Of a stretch of 64,000 nucleotides of DNA, positions 12,901 to 30,185 are shown piece by piece (within the stretch, counting starts at the first letter, position 1; the number at the start of each line of letters is the position of its first letter). Position numbers and translations under genes: made by a program. The notes under the pieces were generated by a model. The model was not told the origin of the DNA and searched no databases. It saw nothing but the letters and a program-made list of their open reading frames with translations. Source of the DNA: Porpolomopsis calyptriformis (lineage: Eukaryota > Basidiomycota > Agaricomycetes > Agaricales > Hygrophoraceae); the NCBI GenBank assembly GCA_951640195.1, contig OX621170.1:806001-870000 (forward strand). The letters are read 5' to 3'.

Positions 12901-13643
12901 GTAACTATTAACAGGACAACTGGTCCCATCTCCTGGCTATTGCGGAATTTGCGTATAACAATGCTCCGAATGCTACTACTGGGATATCCCCTTTTTTCGC
13001 CAACAAGGGTTATCATCCAAATATTTCGGTACACCCTGAGCGTGATCTTACTTCCATTCGAGCCAGAGAACTAGCTGTTGATTTGGACGAACTCCACTCT
13101 GAACTCCAAAATACTATCTCCAAAGCTCAAAAGCGTTATCAGCACTATGCTGATTTAAAGCGCATTCCAGCCCCTGATTTTGAAATAGGAACTCAAGCCT
13201 TCATAAAGGCCAAGTTTTTCCGAACTACCAGACCCTCCAAGAAACTCTTGGAGAAGAACTTAGGTCCTTTCGAGGTTATTGCCTGAGTTGGAACCCATTC
13301 CTATACTCTCCATTTGCCTAGTTCCATGAAAGCTACCCATCCTGTCTTTCATGTATCACAGTTGGAACTAGCCTCACCAAATACAATTCCAAACTGAGTA
13401 CAACCTCCACCTCCTCCGGTAATCATAGATGGAGAACCGGAGTTCGAGATCTCTGAAATCCTAGACTCAAAAATTGATAATAGGCATCGCTTATGCAAAT
13501 TATTATATTTGGTTCATTGGGAAGGCTATGAAGGTACCGATGAAGAAACTTCATGGATCCTCGCTACTAAGCTAGGACATGCTTTGGAACTCATCTCGGA
13601 GTTCCACTCTGCTTATCCGAAGAAACCCAGACCTGACTATTGA
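9886..13643 (+). pseudogene. GypC pol (protease, RT, RNase H, integrase, chromodomain)
   Basis: Protease LIDSGSTHYF near 10100. RT with LCMDYRGINKIT (10900-10935), [25 protein letters not shown] and active-site [10 protein letters not shown] (11195-11225). RNase H with ETDASDYTI (11640). Integrase zinc domain near 12350-12490 (H...H...CTMC), DDE core with DFIKQLP (12572), a broken second Asp region near 12750 and YHPEGDRQTERVNQ (12830). Chromodomain (FEISEIL...YLVHWEGYEG, 13443-13560), stop at 13641-13643. At least ten in-frame stops and small shifts (for example near 11017, 11265, 12418 and 12900). An autonomous copy must have existed elsewhere. Confidence 0.9.
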
Positions 13644-13690: not shown

Positions 13691-14483
13691 CTATTCCAAA
13701 GGGACTAATTCTACATCCCTTATGGGCATTTCCTCCTCTTCCGACATCTCCAACTCCTCCGACACCTCTGAACTTTCTCCGCTTTCTCCACTGTCTTTAT
13801 ATTCCCCATCTAACAACTCCTCAGTCCTCTCCATGGACTCCCTCATTCTCTTCATCTCCATTCTCATCTTCCTCATTTCCCCCCGAACTCCTTGCAACTC
13901 CTCCCTCAAATTCGCCATCTCTGACGACTCCGCATTTCCTCGTCACCTCTTTCCTCTGTGTTCCGGTTCCTCTGTGGTACTCTGGACGTGTTTCCTTTTT
14001 GCTGGTTCTTCCCCAACCCAGCATTTGGCCTTTACCTGTTGGCAGGTGGTACAACTCCGGGCCTTCCCCTGTCCGGTCAGCCACACACACCCCTCCACAC
14101 TCCCTTTCCTGATGCAAGGCTCGCATGGAGCCCTCCTAAATGAACTCTGGTCAACTCCAGAATAAGGTAGATAAAAGAAAAAGTACTTACAGCCTTCTAA
14201 TCAAGGCCTCTTGCCACCCTGATCTTTCCTCCACCGTCATCTCCACCATCTCCACTTGCTCCGCTGTTCAAGCCACCTCCTTCGCCCTCCTTGCTACCTC
14301 CCTTTTTGCAGCTTTGGCCACCTTTCTGGCTGCTCATCGTTCCTCTGCCAACTGGCACTCTTCCTCTGTCCTCCGGGCCTCCTCTGCTTCTTTCTCCGCT
14401 TCCTCATGTTCTCGTTGTTCTTCATTTTCAAGCTAGACTTGCAGTTGTGCAAGTTGGGCTTGGATCTCGTCGCAAGTGGGCAT
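13691..14483 (-). pseudogene. GypC antisense spliced gene: coiled coil with Zn-cluster
   Basis: Minus-strand gene between pol and the 3' LTR, convergent with pol (47 bp apart). ATG at 14481-14483; exon 1 14191-14483; intron 14136-14190 (55 bp, GTAAGT...TTTAG); exon 2 13691-14135. Splicing keeps one frame of about 246 codons. It has a Glu/Ala/Arg-rich coiled coil, then six cysteines in C-X2-C-X8-C-X11-C-X2-C-X6-C (CEPC...CTTCQQVKAKC) just after the exon junction, a second Met/Arg/Glu coiled coil, and a Ser/Glu acidic tail. Stops all look like CAG to TAG or CGA to TGA decay. The cluster resembles fungal binuclear zinc domains, so nucleic-acid binding is plausible but unproven. GypB carries an analogous gene. 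Confidence 0.75.
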
Positions 14484-14653
14484 TGTTAATGAAGAAGGGT
14501 GGTCCACCAGACCTCATTATATATGTTCCAATTTCAAACTCCGATGATTCTCCAAAATCCGCCACATTCCAAAACTCCGATTTCTTGGTCATTACCAAAT
14601 ATGGTCAAGTTCAGTATGTGGTCTTGAGGGCTTGCCCTTTAAGAGGGAGATAC

Positions 14654-14908
14654 TGTTATATCCCAGTTCCAACAAACTCCGATGAATTCTGATGAACTCC
14701 AATAACTCCAACAACTCTGAACACTCCATACTTTTCACATGTTTCCTACTTGTGACGTCCTCTGTTGTTACTATGTCTCAGATATAATTATCTAGCAGGT
14801 ATATAAGTACTGCATTTTTTCCTGTATCTGTAGACAGAATATCGACTAAGTCCTATCGTTTATCCATCTCCGATCTCCAAATTCAACTCTGAAACTTTGG
14901 TCCTAACA
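14654..14908 (+). repeat. GypC 3' LTR
   Basis: TGTTATATCCCAG...GGTCCTAACA, 255 bp like the 5' LTR, after the purine tract AAGAGGGAGATAC. It is followed by TCATC, the slightly decayed target duplication, and then by GypB RT sequence. The 170 bp between the antisense gene and this LTR hold no ORF. Confidence 0.92.
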
Positions 14909-16680
14909 TCATCGACTAGTTACCCTACCCATGGGATGGACAAATTCTGTGCCAGTTATTCACGACAACGTCACCTATATCCTCCAACTGGAGATTCCTG
15001 AGTTTACAATCCCCTATATCGATGATATCCCCATGAAAGGTCCTGCAACTTGGTATGTATTACCCAATGGATCCTACAAAACAATTCCAGAGAACAATGG
15101 AATTTGACGATTCATGTGGGAACACTTCAGGAATCTCAATCGAATAGTCCAGCAAATGAAATATTGCAGCAGAACCATGTCAGGCTATAAATTGTTCTTG
15201 TGCACAGAAGAAACCACTATTCTCAGACATCAATGTACTCACTTAGCATGACTACCTGACGAATTGTGTGTCTCAGTGATCTGAAACTGGGGTCCCTGTA
15301 AAGACCTCTCTAAAGTTCAAGCCTTCCTTGGCACTATTGGCATCATTTGGATTTTCATTCGCAACTTCACGCATTAGGTACACTACCTAGTCAAGCTTAC
15401 TAGGAAAGATATACCCTTCAAATTCAGTCCCAATCAGCTCGCTGCTCAAGAGGACCTAAAACAAGCCCTTCTAGAATCACCTACTCTATGAGTCCTCAAT
15501 TATACTTCTGATGCTCCTGTCATACTCACCATCAACACCTCCCATATTGCTATTGGATTTCACTTGTGCCAATGTGATCCTGACAACCTGAAGAATAATT
15601 GATTCAGTTTGATCACATTGAACAATCAAGAAAGAAGGTTCTCTCAGCCAAAACCCGAAATCTACAGTCTCTATTGAGCCTTGTGATCACTCCAATTCTA
15701 CCTTATCAGCATTTGAAACCTCATTATAGAAGTCGACGCTTGCTATATCAAAGGAATGCTAGTGAACCCAGACATTGCACCCCAAGCTAGTATTAACAGA
15801 TGGATTGTAGCAATCCTAACATTCCATTTTACCTTGGTACATGTCGCTGGATCGAACCATGGTCCCAATAGTCTCTCTTGATGCCCCCGACAGCCTAATG
15901 ACTAAGATGACAAACAGCTGAGCGATAAAGACTTTGATAATTGGATCAATTGCATCCATGGATTAATGCACCATATCAACGATTTGCCCACACCCTGAAT
16001 GAAAACCCTCTAATCACCCACCTCAGTTTACTTGCAGAGTAAACATTTCAGTGAGGAGGAGGAGGACCCCATCCATCCACATACCGATTCCTACAACATC
16101 ATTCTGCAATCAGAAGCAGCTCAACAAGATGATCGACAACTTATCCTTATTCAAAAATGGCTCTCAGATCTTGAACAACCAAGCAACATATCACCTTCCC
16201 ACTCCAGATTTGGTTCTTTCAATGACTGATCTAATATCGCAACATGTGATCACTCTACAAAAATGAGATGCTGACTTAGAGCAACTTCGATCGAAGGTTC
16301 TCATTACTTGCCTACGATCTGTAGTTCGATTCAAGAAGAGACACGAGAAGACCATTCGCAACTACAACTTCAAAACTGGCAATCTCATACTCATTTGGAA
16401 CACGAAAATTGAGAAGTCTCTTAATCAAAAAATGCATCCTCAATACCTAGGACCCCTAGTCATGATATCTCGACACCTAGGAAAAGCATATATCATTGCA
16501 GAGCTCTACGGATCCATCTTACACCATCCGATTGCTGCATTTAGAGTTATCCCATACTTCACCCGAAGATTGATCACAATTCCTAAATGATTCCTTGACA
16601 TATCAACTTCACAACTTAGAGAGATGGAATATTTGCTAACTAGCAAACCACTCGATAGCATTGCGATCGAGGACTTGTAA
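14909..16680 (+). pseudogene. GypB copy 1 gag-pol, remainder (RT, RNase H, partial integrase)
   Basis: Resumes the RT cut at 1551: YIDDIPMKGPAT (about 15015) carries the active site, followed by FLGTIGI (15325) and the RNase H region to about 15890. Integrase is mostly missing. Compared with copies 2 and 3, about 0.8 kb is deleted at 16180-16195, where GCAACAT microhomology joins the two sides. The C-terminal domain (PQYLGPLVMISRHLGKAY, 16440-16500) continues to TAA 16678-16680. Many stops are present, mostly readable as C-to-T or G-to-A changes. I see no chromodomain in GypB. Confidence 0.85.
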
Positions 16681-16806
16681 CTTGCTGTAATGAATCTCTA
16701 CACAATCTTTTTTATTTCAAGTCTTTCTTTCATTTTTTATAGAAACAAAAATACAATTTTAAAGAGGAGAAGACTAGAGGCTACAAAAATATACAAGATA
16801 TAAAAT

Positions 16807-18532
16807 CTACAATTGGTCTAAGACCATTTCCTCTTCCTTTTCTTCCAAACCCCTTAAAATCTCCTTGAGAATGATGATCTGTGCTTTTATGTGCACTTTC
16901 TCCTCTGCGATTGCCACTAAAACCTCTCACAACTTGTCTTCATCAGCAGCCGCCACCTTCGCCTTTCCTTTCTGACCTGTGAGTGGCTGCATCATTCCTT
17001 TTGAACTCTCGCCCACTGTCTCCTCTTCAAAGGGTGGGGTCTCATTGATATAAACCACAGGACCTGAAAAAGAATTAGTTAGAAAGAATAAAAGTCAAAA
17101 AGAAAAAGGAAAAACTTATGAGAAACGGCCCTCACTGATTTCTAAACCCCCTTCAATGATTCTCCCACCATCGCCAACTTGTTCGTACCCTTCAATTCCA
17201 CCTTAGGTTGTGGCTTAAACTTCTTGCCCAGCCACATTTCCCCCTTCCAATAGCATTTGCACTTGTCTGTTATGCACTTGACGCATAACGGATCGGTGGG
17301 GTCAATCTCACATTCCGTGCTAACCTTTTCGCAAAAGTCACACTACAAAATAAAGAAGTCCATTAGTAAAACAAAAATAAGAGAAGAGAGAGAGAAACTT
17401 ACCTTGCCCTCAACCAGGTGCAAGGTTTCCTCCATTGCCTTTCTCTTGCAGTACTCCTGTGTCATTATCACCAGAAGGGAATAACCCTTCTCTGCCATCC
17501 TCTCCCAATAGGCCACCTTCAACTATTTGACCAGTTCTTCTGCAGTTAGCAATTGCGCTGCTGCCATTAACTCTTCTTCACCATCCAGGGGCTGGTGCCC
17601 ATCCTCTGTCATCTCTGTTATCGCCCCCGTCATGTCTGGCATGTTTGCTGACACCTCCGCTACCTTCATTCCACCTTTGCCCACCACCTTTTCCATTTCT
17701 CAACAGAATTCCTCCTTGTCAATCTTTCCATCCAGAAGTAGCTGGAGGAGCCTCTCGTAGGCTTCCTCCACCCGCTTCTGGTCCTCTGCGTCTCATACCT
17801 CCCATTCTTCTTGCTCCCACTTCTCTGGCACCTCCCATTCCGCCCTCTCGACCTGCTTGCGCTCCTCTCATTTCTCCCATTCTTCATGCTCCACTCGCTC
17901 TCGTTCCTCTTGCTCCTTGCTCTCGTTCCTCTTGCTCCTCGCTCTCGTTCCTCTTGCTCCTTGCTCTCATTCCTCTTGCTCCTCACTCTCATTCCTCTTG
18001 CTCCTTGCTCTCATTCCTCTTGCTCCTCGCTCTCGTTCCTCTTGCTCCTCACTCTCATTCCTCTTGCTCCTCACACTCAACCCTCTCTCATTCCTCCTAT
18101 GCACATGCTTCCGCCCTCTCCCTCACCTTGCATTCCTCTTCCTCCCTTCACTCTCACTCTACCCTCTCTGCCTCCACTTTCTCCTCGACCTCCCGATGCA
18201 CCACCTCTGCCAGTCTTGGCATCAACATCTCCCCTGCCCAATCCAACCACCCTTGTTCTTCAAAAGCATTGAAGGTCTCATGGGCCTCCTTTTGCCACAT
18301 GATGACCTTGTTGTCCATCAATGTTTCTTTAAGGGCCTTTACAACCTGATTATATGCGATCTAAAAAGATGGATTAGCAAAAGAAAACAATTAGAAAAAC
18401 AAAACTTACCAGTAACTTGCAGAATTGTTGCCCCCAGATCTTGTAATCTTCAGGTTCAGCAACCCCATCTGGAAGCAACTTCATCTGGTTGCTATTCTTC
18501 TGTTTCGCAATAGTTATTACATTCTTCACCAT
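16807..18532 (-). pseudogene. GypB copy 1 antisense spliced gene: coiled coil with Gal4-like Cys cluster
   Basis: Minus-strand gene convergent with pol. Exon 1 18410-18532 (ATG, 41 codons to KLL); intron 18361-18409; exon 2 17403-18360; intron 17343-17402; exon 3 17120-17342; intron 17064-17119; exon 4 16807-17063 (stop TAG). The first two introns are GT-AG and frames join cleanly. Exon 2 is a Glu/Arg-rich coiled coil with a 22-bp tandem repeat. Exon 3 opens with CDFCEKVSTEC and continues with C-X2-C and C-X-C: spacing C-X2-C-X6-C-X8-C-X2-C-X6-C, as in Zn2Cys6 domains. Exon 4 is again helical and charged. Stops are mostly CGA to TGA or CAG to TAG. The third donor reads ATAAGT instead of GTAAGT. 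Role unknown; DNA or RNA binding is inferred from the cluster. Confidence 0.75.
17897..18072. repeat. 22-bp tandem repeat, eight units
   Basis: Eight consecutive 22-bp units of the type GCTCTCGTTCCTCTTGCTCC plus two bases, differing by transitions. Read on the minus strand they encode Glu/Arg/Lys/Gln-rich coiled-coil sequence. As 22 is not a multiple of three, three units (66 bp) make one 22-residue protein period and all three frames stay charged. Copies 2 and 3 lack this expansion. Confidence 0.9.
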
Positions 18533-19306: not shown

Positions 19307-20116
19307 ATGGAGATGATGGAGGAGGGGTATAAGCTCCCAATTGATGAAGGGGAATCAGTAGCAGCAGTGCATTCACTGACTGTAGAAGATGAGGTGGAGA
19401 AGTCGAAGGCAGCCTATTGGGAGAGAATGGCAGTAAAGGGATGGTTACTCCCTGCAATCACGATGTAGGAGTTTTGGAAGAGGAAGGCAATAGAGGAGAC
19501 CTTGCACCTAGTCGAGGGCAAGGTAAGTCTTTTTCTCTTCTCTTATTTTTGTTTTTCTAATAGACTTTTTTATTTCACAGTGTGATTTTTGTGAAAGGGT
19601 TAGCACTGAATGCAAGATCAACCCTGCTGATCTGTCATGCGTCAAGTTTGTGATGGATAAATGCAGGTGCTATTAGAAGGGGGAAATACAGCTAGGCAAG
19701 AAGTTCAAGCTATAGCCCAAGGTGGTAGCGAAGGACACAGACAAGTTGGTGATAGTGGGAGGATCATTGAAGGGGGTTCAGAAATTGGTGAGGGCCTTTT
19801 CTCATAAGTTTTTCTTTTTCTATCATTTTCTTTTATTCTTTCTAACTGATTCTTTTTTAGGTCCTATGGTTTATATTGACAAGACCCTGCCCTTCGAGCG
19901 GGAGATGGCAGGTAAGAGTTCGAAGGGAATGATATAGCCAATTGCAGGTTGGAAAGGCAAGGTGAAGGCAATGGCTGCTAATGAAGAGAAGTTGTGAGAG
20001 GTGTTAGTGGAAATCGCAGAGGAGAAAGTGCATATAAAAGTGCAGATCATTGTTCTCAAGGATATATTCAGGGGTTTAGAAGAAAAGAGGAGGAAATGGT
20101 TTTAGAGGATTTGTAG
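19307..20116 (+). pseudogene. GypB copy 3 antisense gene, 3' part
   Basis: Second half of the antisense accessory gene, here on the plus strand because copy 3 lies on the minus strand. Exon 2 end to 19522; intron 19523-19580; exon 3 19581-19803 starting CDFCERVSTEC; intron 19804-19860 with donor ATAAGT; exon 4 19861-20116 (TAG). Exon boundaries match copies 1 and 2 exactly, which supports them as real introns. The fifth cluster cysteine is changed (CVKF instead of CVKC). The 5' part was cut off by insertion of GypB copy 1. Confidence 0.75.
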
Positions 20117-28598: not shown

Positions 28599-30185
28599 GT
28601 GTCAAGACAATCAGCAATAGCAAAAAACGTAATAACCATTGTGAAACAGAAGATTAGCAACCAGATGAAGTCACTTCTGGATGGGGTTGCCGAACCTGAA
28701 GATTACAAGATCTGGGGGCAACAATTTTGCAAGTTGCTAGTAAGTCTCATTTTTTTAATTGTTTTTCTTTTGCTAATCCATCTTTTTAGATCGCATATAA
28801 TCAGGTCGTGTAGGCCCTGAAAGAAACATTGATGGATGACAAGGTTGTCGCATGGTAAAAGGAGGCCTGCAAGACTTTTGACATTTTCAAAGAACAAGGG
28901 TGGTTGGAGTGGGTGGGGGAGCTGCTGATGCCAAGGTTGGCAGAGGTGGTACATTGCAAGGCTGAGGAGAAAGGAGAGGTAGACAGGGTCAAGTGGGAAC
29001 AAAGGGTACAGTAGAAGAGGAATGCGAGGTGAGGGAGAGGGTGGAGGTGTCTGCATGGGAGGAATGAGAGAGGGTCAAGCGCAAGGAACGAGAGGAATGA
29101 GAGTGAGCGGAGTGCAAAGAACAAGAGAAGCAAGAGGAGTGGGAGCAGGTTGAGAGGGCGGAATGAGAGGAGCAAGAGAAACAGGAGTGAGAGGTACAGC
29201 AGGAACGAGAATGGGAGGAACAGGATGTGGAGGGCTAGAAGCAGGTGGAGGAAGCCTATAAGAGGCTCCTCCAGTTGCTTCTGGATGGAAAAATCAATAA
29301 GGAAGAGTTCCATCCAGAGACAGAAAAGGTGGCATGCAAAGGGGGAACGAAGGTAGCAGAGGTGTCGGCAGACATGCCAGATACAACAGGGGTAACAATG
29401 GAGATAACAGAGGATGGGCACCAGCCCCTGGACAGCGAAGAAGAGTTGGTGGCAGCAGTGCAATCACTAACTGCCAAGGAAATCATGGAAAGGTTGTCGG
29501 TGGCCTATCAGGAGAGAATGGCAGAGAAGGGACAGTTGCTCCCTGTGATCACAATGCAGGAGTTTCGGAAGAGGAAGGTGATAGAGGAGGCCTTGCACCT
29601 GGTTGAGGGCAAGGTAAGTCTCCTTCTTTCTCTTCTCTTATTTTTGTTTTACTAATGGACTTCTTTATTTCATAGTATGATTTTTGCGAAAAGGTTGGTG
29701 TGGAATGCAAGATTGACCCCACTGATCCATTATGTATCAAGTGTGTAATGGATAAGTGCAGATGCTAATACAAGGGAGAAACTTATTTGGGCAAGAAGTT
29801 CAAGCTGCAGCCCAAGGTGGAATCGAAGGGTACGAACAAGTCAGTGATGGTGGGAGAATCATCAAAGAGGGTTCGGAAATCAGGAAGGGCCATGTCTCAT
29901 AAGTTATTCTTTTTTCTTTTCTAATCTCTTCTTTCTATAGGTCCAGTAGTCTATATTGATGAGACCCCACCTTTCAAGGAGGAGATGGTGGGCGAGAGTT
30001 TGAAGGGAATGATGTGGCTGATCGTGGGTTGGAAAGGAAAGGCAAAGGCAGCAGCTGCCGATGAAGACAAGTTGCAAGAGGTTTTGGCAGCAATCGCAGA
30101 GGAGAAAGCGCAGATTGTCATTCTCGAGGAGATTTTAAGGGGTTTGGAAGAAAAGGAAGAGGAAATGGTCTTAGACCAATTGTAG
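28599..30185 (+). pseudogene. GypB copy 2 antisense spliced gene: coiled coil with Cys cluster
   Basis: Best view of the four-exon accessory gene. Exon 1 starts near 28599 (the position of the ATG in copy 1 is mutated) and ends 28739; intron 28740-28789; exon 2 28790-29613; intron 29614-29675; exon 3 29676-29898; intron 29899-29940 with donor ATAAGT; exon 4 29941-30185. Exon 1 matches copy 1 (VAEPEDYKIWGQQFCKLL). Exon 2 holds the Glu/Arg-rich coiled coil with six or more CGA-to-TGA stops and one 1-base shift, then a better conserved segment (EEAYKRLLQLLLDGKINKEEF to VIEEALHLVEGK). Exon 3 has the cluster, its first Cys now Tyr. It is antisense to and convergent with gag-pol, 126 bp apart. Confidence 0.78.

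Follow-up and report, generated by a model that had tools for sequence, protein, structure and literature searches.

Intron-containing antisense genes with a six-cysteine module, under purifying selection, in two distantly related Ty3/gypsy families of Porpolomopsis calyptriformis

How can a retroelement retain a gene with introns on the strand opposite to gag-pol, and what might such a gene do for it? Retrotransposons usually lose introns, and we know of no established function for the antisense accessory genes of long terminal repeat (LTR) retrotransposons. This question is raised by a stretch of 64,000 nucleotides of the Porpolomopsis calyptriformis genome (C8:806001-870000 of 33.5 Mb in 17 contigs; hereafter the window), in which LTR retrotransposons of two families, GypC and GypB, are nested. 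The original prediction placed an antisense, intron-containing gene between pol and the 3' LTR in GypC (13691-14483) and in GypB (16807-18532, with two further copies), and this arrangement was confirmed. A spliced antisense gene whose reading frame and cysteines are under purifying selection is thus present in two distantly related Ty3/gypsy families.

In the window, the GypC gene lies on the minus strand and has two exons. Exon 1 (14191..14483) encodes an N-terminal coiled coil and exon 2 (13691..14135) the motif C-x2-C-x8-C-x11-C-x2-C-x6-C, a basic stretch, a second coil and an acidic tail; they are separated by an intron of 55 nt (14136..14190, GTAAGT..TTAG). This copy is broken, with exon 1 among the parts that carry stops (four in frame in all), and the gene was therefore compared with 29 further copies from the same genome (L010-L038), 27 of which align from the ATG. 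The reading frame was kept in all 27, exon 1 having always a length of 2 mod 3 and exon 2 of 1 mod 3, across ten length variants of exon 1, five of exon 2 and five of the intron (53 to 57 nt). Among the 29 copies, the acceptor AG was invariant and the donor read GTAAGT in 23 and ATAAGT in six. Six copies were free of internal stops, two of them with the ATAAGT donor. The alignment contained 43 stop codons, the largest class of which (19) fell where CGA stands in most copies, a pattern expected from CpG decay.

The GypB gene is represented in the window by three copies. Copy 1 (16807-18532, minus strand) consists of four exons and three introns: exon 1 (18410..18532), intron 1 (18361..18409, 49 nt), exon 2 (17403..18360), intron 2 (17343..17402, 60 nt), exon 3 (17120..17342), intron 3 (17064..17119, 56 nt, donor decayed to ATAAGT) and exon 4 (16807..17063), which encodes a C-terminal coil. 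Exon 3 encodes C-x2-C-x6-C-x8-C-x2-C-x6-C and a basic stretch, and exon 2 a long charged coil, with stops and an internal frame change in this copy; an expanded 22-bp tandem repeat (9.6 copies, 17874-18086) lies within exon 2. Copy 2 (19307..20116, plus strand) is a remnant that lacks the 5' part of the gene, and copy 3 (28599..30185, plus strand) is decayed, with ATA at the expected start codon. Where sequence was present, both matched the exon borders of copy 1, as had been predicted for the three copies. The donor of intron 3 was most likely C^GTAAGT (17119 in copy 1), 16 nt beyond GTGAGG at 17135. Across 30 GypB copies this donor read GTAAGT in 10, ATAAGT in 19 and GAAAGT in one, and is thus intact in a minority. 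The change from C^GTAAGT to ATAAGT is common to the GypC donor (6 of 29) and the donor of GypB intron 3 (19 of 30), as CpG decay predicts.

The earlier argument that introns of an antisense gene survive retrotransposition fits these structures: the genomic RNA would contain the introns only as their reverse complement and would thereby preserve them. Antisense orientation would be a simple rule by which a retroelement can carry an intron-containing gene.

Selection on the encoded proteins was assessed from the ratio of nonsynonymous to synonymous substitution rates (dN/dS; NG86, all pairs), combined with a context control in which the observed changes are redistributed over sites with an identical trinucleotide. 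For the GypC gene, dN/dS was 0.24 (28 rows, 378 pairs, leaving out L010 and L012, in which the 5' part is replaced) and 0.21 for the six open copies, corresponding to 0.53 and 0.49 of the neutral ratio, respectively, in the context control. GypB exons 3 and 4 showed a dN/dS of 0.17 at a dS of 0.71 (24 rows, 276 pairs) and 0.42 of the neutral ratio; rows L041, L060 and L061 (frameshift) and, for exon 4, additionally L049, L054 and L062 were left out. The gene frame had the lowest ratio both in GypC exon 2 (20 rows; 0.25 versus 0.41-1.05 in the other five frames) and in GypB exon 3 (25 rows; 0.17 versus 0.28-1.48), and the nearest rival was in both cases the opposite-strand frame that shares third positions. 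Two pol blocks of the same GypC copies gave 0.30 and 0.23; judged by dN/dS, the antisense genes are about as strictly kept as pol. Since these averages mix change during transposition with later neutral decay, they underestimate the constraint. The six cysteines of the module were retained by 25-27 of the 27 GypB rows and by 27-28 of the 28 GypC rows, while other cysteine columns mostly read R elsewhere. A dN/dS near 1 and loss of the cysteines, the outcome on which the original prediction was to fall, was therefore not observed: ratios were 0.17-0.24 and the six cysteines near-invariant.

GypC copies elsewhere in the genome comprise gag, pol and a chromodomain, with a total length of 6.4 kb and LTRs of 256-258 bp (96.5% and 95.0% identical within a copy), and matches of copy L070 to Retrotrans_gag, RVT_1, RNase H, rve and chromo identify a Ty3/gypsy element. 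For GypB (copy L071: LTRs of 535-555 bp, 92.8% identical), the pieces scanned matched only protease and integrase-H2C2 domains, and the reverse transcriptase was recognized by its similarity to that of GypC. The families had been described as two unrelated Gypsy families; their assignment to Ty3/gypsy held, but with reverse transcriptases 27-28% identical over 115 aa, 'distantly related' is a safer label than 'unrelated'.

Within each family, the antisense gene was associated with the element. It was found 53-82 bp downstream of 62 of 65 GypC-like chromodomains, and GypB exon 3 within 53-563 bp (median 469) of 74 of 77 pol ends, all in convergent orientation. No antisense gene occurred on the pol strand within 1.5 kb among these 65 chromodomains and 77 pol ends. 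The sets consisted of the 65 rows at E 8.7e-21 or better out of 150 scored, which leaves out at least four short GypC-like fragments, and of the 77 rows at E 5e-13 or better out of 94; both are lower bounds for their family. Near the three GypC chromodomains without an adjacent gene, a gene match was located 3-7 kb away, as an insertion would produce. In the window, the end of GypC pol with its chromodomain (13398..13643, plus strand) is convergent with the antisense gene, and the 3' LTR (14654..14908, plus strand) contains a sense TATATAA at 14800. Downstream of eight other chromodomains (44-53% identity, 2.2 kb each) no antisense six-cysteine frame was detected, in a search that an intron inside the motif would escape.

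Conserved TATA boxes predict that each antisense gene has its own promoter. The box of the GypC gene (TATATAA, 14518..14524, minus strand) recurs as TATATA, at -40 relative to the ATG, in each of the 27 other copies compared. The start of the GypB gene could be located in 24 of 30 copies, and 23 of these have TTTATAA at -97 to -99. The GypB leader between TATA box and ATG contained TGTGAC-N6-GTCACA, exact in 19 of 24 copies and with part of the spacer variable. A CACGTG palindrome is conserved approximately 30 bp upstream of the antisense TATA box in GypB promoters (e.g., L071:580-650).

Both proteins combine coils with a small cysteine module. The order in GypC is coil, six cysteines, basic stretch, coil and acidic tail; in GypB it is N-terminal part, long charged coil with the expanding 22-bp repeat, six cysteines, basic stretch and coil. 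The cysteine spacings were as first given, and the accompanying description as a Gal4-like Zn2Cys6 domain was partly right. Six cysteines in two C-x2-C-xn-C triplets, a basic stretch and a coiled coil resemble Zn2Cys6 proteins (PF00172), but membership in PF00172 did not hold, as all matches remained below threshold and the triplets paired with opposite halves of the profile. The best match of GypB had an E value of 0.23 (12 bits versus a cut-off of 21; in 5 of 18 rows) and that of GypC 0.86 (in 13 of 17 rows), and PF00172 was not listed for the window pieces at E 10. In these sub-threshold alignments, the first triplet of GypB aligned with profile positions 20-34 and the second triplet of GypC with 1-14. 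Read by eye, C-x2-C..G..C comes first and C-x2-C-x3-K-x2-C second in both proteins, the reverse of the usual Zn2Cys6 order; basic residues inside the first triplet and a smaller second triplet, as in PF00172, were thus not found. Together with the two weak Pfam matches, this reading makes the triplet order look swapped relative to Zn2Cys6, which we regard as a lead. The PROSITE pattern for Zn2Cys6 is C-x2-C-x6-C-x5..12-C-x2-C-x6..8-C; GypB fits this spacing, whereas GypC differs in having x8 in the first triplet.

Homology between the GypB and GypC proteins was not supported: hhalign gave a probability of 2%, with the second triplet of GypC set against the first of GypB, and shuffle tests gave p 0.14 with the cysteines held fixed and p 0.42 to 0.59 for the C-terminal coils. 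The best E value in a search of solved structures was 0.57. No relatives were found in the protein database (at E 0.001; at E 1 among 7987 word-sharing candidates and among 51 candidates) or in viral contigs, collections whose fungal share is unknown.

Zn2Cys6 proteins recognize CGG triplets, and the GypC LTR contains a regular array of CGG-bearing repeats. In the window it is a decayed array of six TCCGA repeats (TCGGA on the other strand; 14668..14720, plus strand, with starts at 14668, 14678, 14688, 14698, 14707 and 14716). In the LTRs of GypC copy L069, TCGGA was the most frequent 5-mer, with 8 and 7 occurrences versus 0.7 expected (p 0.001, also when compared with the best of all 5-mers), and its starts were 9-10 bp apart in U3; four more lay between the LTR and the antisense TATA box. 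Counting CpG-decayed forms, six repeats were present in 22 of the 23 full GypC LTRs and five in the remaining one (six of the 29 copies, with a partial LTR, were left out). Genome-wide, the pattern TCGGA-N3..6-TCGGA-N3..6-TCGGA had 83 matches versus 13 for the reversed pattern; judged by their letters, 72 of the 83 belong to the GypC LTR array (not each checked for an LTR), six to the coding sequence of the acidic tail and five lie elsewhere. Eight CpG-richer stretches of other families had at most two TCGGA per 95 bp, versus six in L069, three in L070, four in GypB copy L071 and two in GypB copy L072. Control repeats in the window (five copies of three families taken as LTRs) had 0-1 TCGGA, and one had two TCCGA (p 0.02); these controls are weak, being CpG-poor and not established to lack an antisense gene. 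The positions in the window copy (array start at 14668, sense TATA at 14800, antisense TATA near 14520) place the array upstream of both promoters. This array lifts control of the element's own LTR above guesswork, although we still infer it.

A relative of the GypB gene was found outside the elements. At C3:1063949-1062792 (minus strand; L085) lies an open four-exon gene of 327 codons without a stop. Its cysteine exon matches that of GypB at 43% identity (E 1e-9). Introns 2 and 3 coincide with their GypB counterparts in both position and phase, intron 1 has another phase, and the C-terminal coil can be aligned with that of GypB (shuffle p 0.0002). The gene is located in non-repetitive DNA: no element sequence matched around it, and its flanks of 1.5 and 1.8 kb were unique in the genome but for a 37-bp word that matched two sites. 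A TATATAA occurs approximately 35 bp before its ATG. No comparable relative outside elements was found for the GypC gene. With its shared introns, this open single-copy gene makes the direction of gene flow testable.

Antisense accessory open reading frames (ORFs) are known from other elements. The plant Ty3/gypsy aORF-3R genes (Grande gene23, RIRE2, Retand with a TRP28 domain, and PvRetro13) occupy the same place and orientation and are kept in most family copies; a promoter of its own was shown upstream of the antisense ORF of Grande, and a nuclear or DNA-binding role has been suggested for the proteins (PMC7264820, PMC11963269). The genes described here share features of this class: they are antisense ORFs that lie between pol and the 3' LTR, most copies of the family retain them, and their constraint resembles that of gag-pol. 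What sets them apart, in both of the distantly related families, is the presence of introns (one to three) and of a six-cysteine module; neither 'intron' nor 'zinc' occurs as a word in the main texts of the plant accounts, which in the sections available describe no cysteine module (PMC7264820, PMC11963269). One antisense gene of a fungal Ty3/gypsy element was found in the literature, brtn of Boty/BcGypsy1 from Botrytis cinerea (PMC7264820, PMC8365987). The GypC and GypB genes are thus a new variant within the known antisense accessory ORFs of plant Grande, RIRE2 and Retand and of fungal Boty. A search of the open-licence literature found no description of a fungal element whose spliced antisense gene encodes a cysteine module, which is weak evidence of absence. 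Two features are new here: the array of six repeats in the GypC LTR, spaced 9-10 bp and bearing CGG, and the open single-copy relative of the GypB gene that shares two intron positions. A parallel in way of working is HBZ of human T-cell leukemia virus type 1, an antisense-coded, spliced regulator of its own LTR. The likeness goes no further: HBZ is a bZIP and not a zinc protein, its promoter lies inside the 3' LTR, and no sequence relation is claimed.

The best explanation, in which we have about even confidence, is that the gene encodes a DNA-binding regulator of the element's own LTR. According to this explanation, each family would have an accessory gene that runs antisense to gag-pol from a promoter of its own. 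Transcription would start from the TATA box between the 3' LTR and the ATG and head towards the end of pol, and the transcript would be spliced. The product would be a coiled-coil protein in which a compact module of six cysteines, probably binding two zinc ions, lies beside a basic stretch; the protein would dimerize through the coil, bind CGG-containing candidate sites and thereby tune transcription of its own element. In GypC, these candidate sites would be the U3 array with its spacing of 9-10 bp, which precedes the sense promoter of the LTR as well as the antisense promoter. As the array lies 60-130 bp upstream of the LTR TATA box, its geometry would favour activation. Several observations weigh against such a regulator. 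The donor of intron 3 is decayed in 19 of 30 GypB copies, and neither protein matched a DNA-binding family significantly in profile searches. GypC copy L070 has a weaker array (4 versus 0.57 expected, p 0.004; not significant over all 5-mers), and in GypB the motif is only suggestive (6 versus 1.84 in one LTR, p 0.01 and 0.38 over all 5-mers; 4 in the other LTR, p 0.10). TCGGA is frequent elsewhere, too, on the same GypC strand, it encodes Ser-Glu runs in the tail of the gene, and host factors could bind the array. In addition, the dS of the GypC gene (0.29) is approximately twice that of neighbouring pol blocks in the same copies L010-L038 (0.14-0.16), which is unexplained. A more far-reaching version is tentative, and we consider it possible rather than expected: a self-recognizing transcription factor in two lineages, with a new fold order (a permuted six-cysteine zinc cluster), encoded antisense with introns and driving the LTR and its own promoter through the CGG array, from a family that also has a single-copy member outside elements and passed, introns included, between genome and element.

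Without any transcriptional role, the protein might instead be a structural or trafficking accessory, such as an RNA- or capsid-associated zinc coiled-coil protein (nucleocapsid-like, a chaperone or active in import of the preintegration complex), or might steer integration. Both proteins consist mostly of charged coil with a small cysteine module and are about as strictly kept as pol, and the plant antisense ORF proteins include nuclear ones with SMC-like coils (PMC7264820). However, such a role, which we regard as somewhat doubtful, leaves unexplained both the CGG array and the separate TATA promoter with predicted antisense expression, which would decouple the protein from gag-pol. It is improbable that the antisense transcript itself is the main function, limiting copy number by forming double-stranded RNA with the 3' end of the gag-pol mRNA, and that the protein is secondary. 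The genes are convergent with pol, only 53-82 bp apart in GypC, so that read-through would overlap, and the idea has been discussed for plant elements (PMC7264820), but an amino-acid sequence under purifying selection, indels that preserve the frame and the conservation of the cysteines require a selected protein. In a further reading, the gene was captured from the host, or the host gene was domesticated from the element, and its present role lies mainly in the host or is directed at host genes. The single four-exon relative on C3 would fit this, as it lies in non-repetitive DNA and shares the position and phase of introns 2 and 3 with GypB. That too seems unlikely, since the gene is present beside nearly all GypB pol ends and was constrained while the family amplified, both of which indicate that it serves the element; transfer could have gone in either direction, and no such relative was found for GypC. 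The combination of a spliced and constrained antisense gene, a zinc-like module, a predicted promoter and a candidate array makes the role of such genes directly testable.

Promoter-like matches had also hinted at a third family. Of the four stretches read, two were rearranged GypC remnants, one was a truncated GypC remnant and one lacked an evident GypC leader. The CpG observed/expected ratio was 0.47 for the window, 0.88 for GypC copy L069 and 1.23 for the GypB locus L071.

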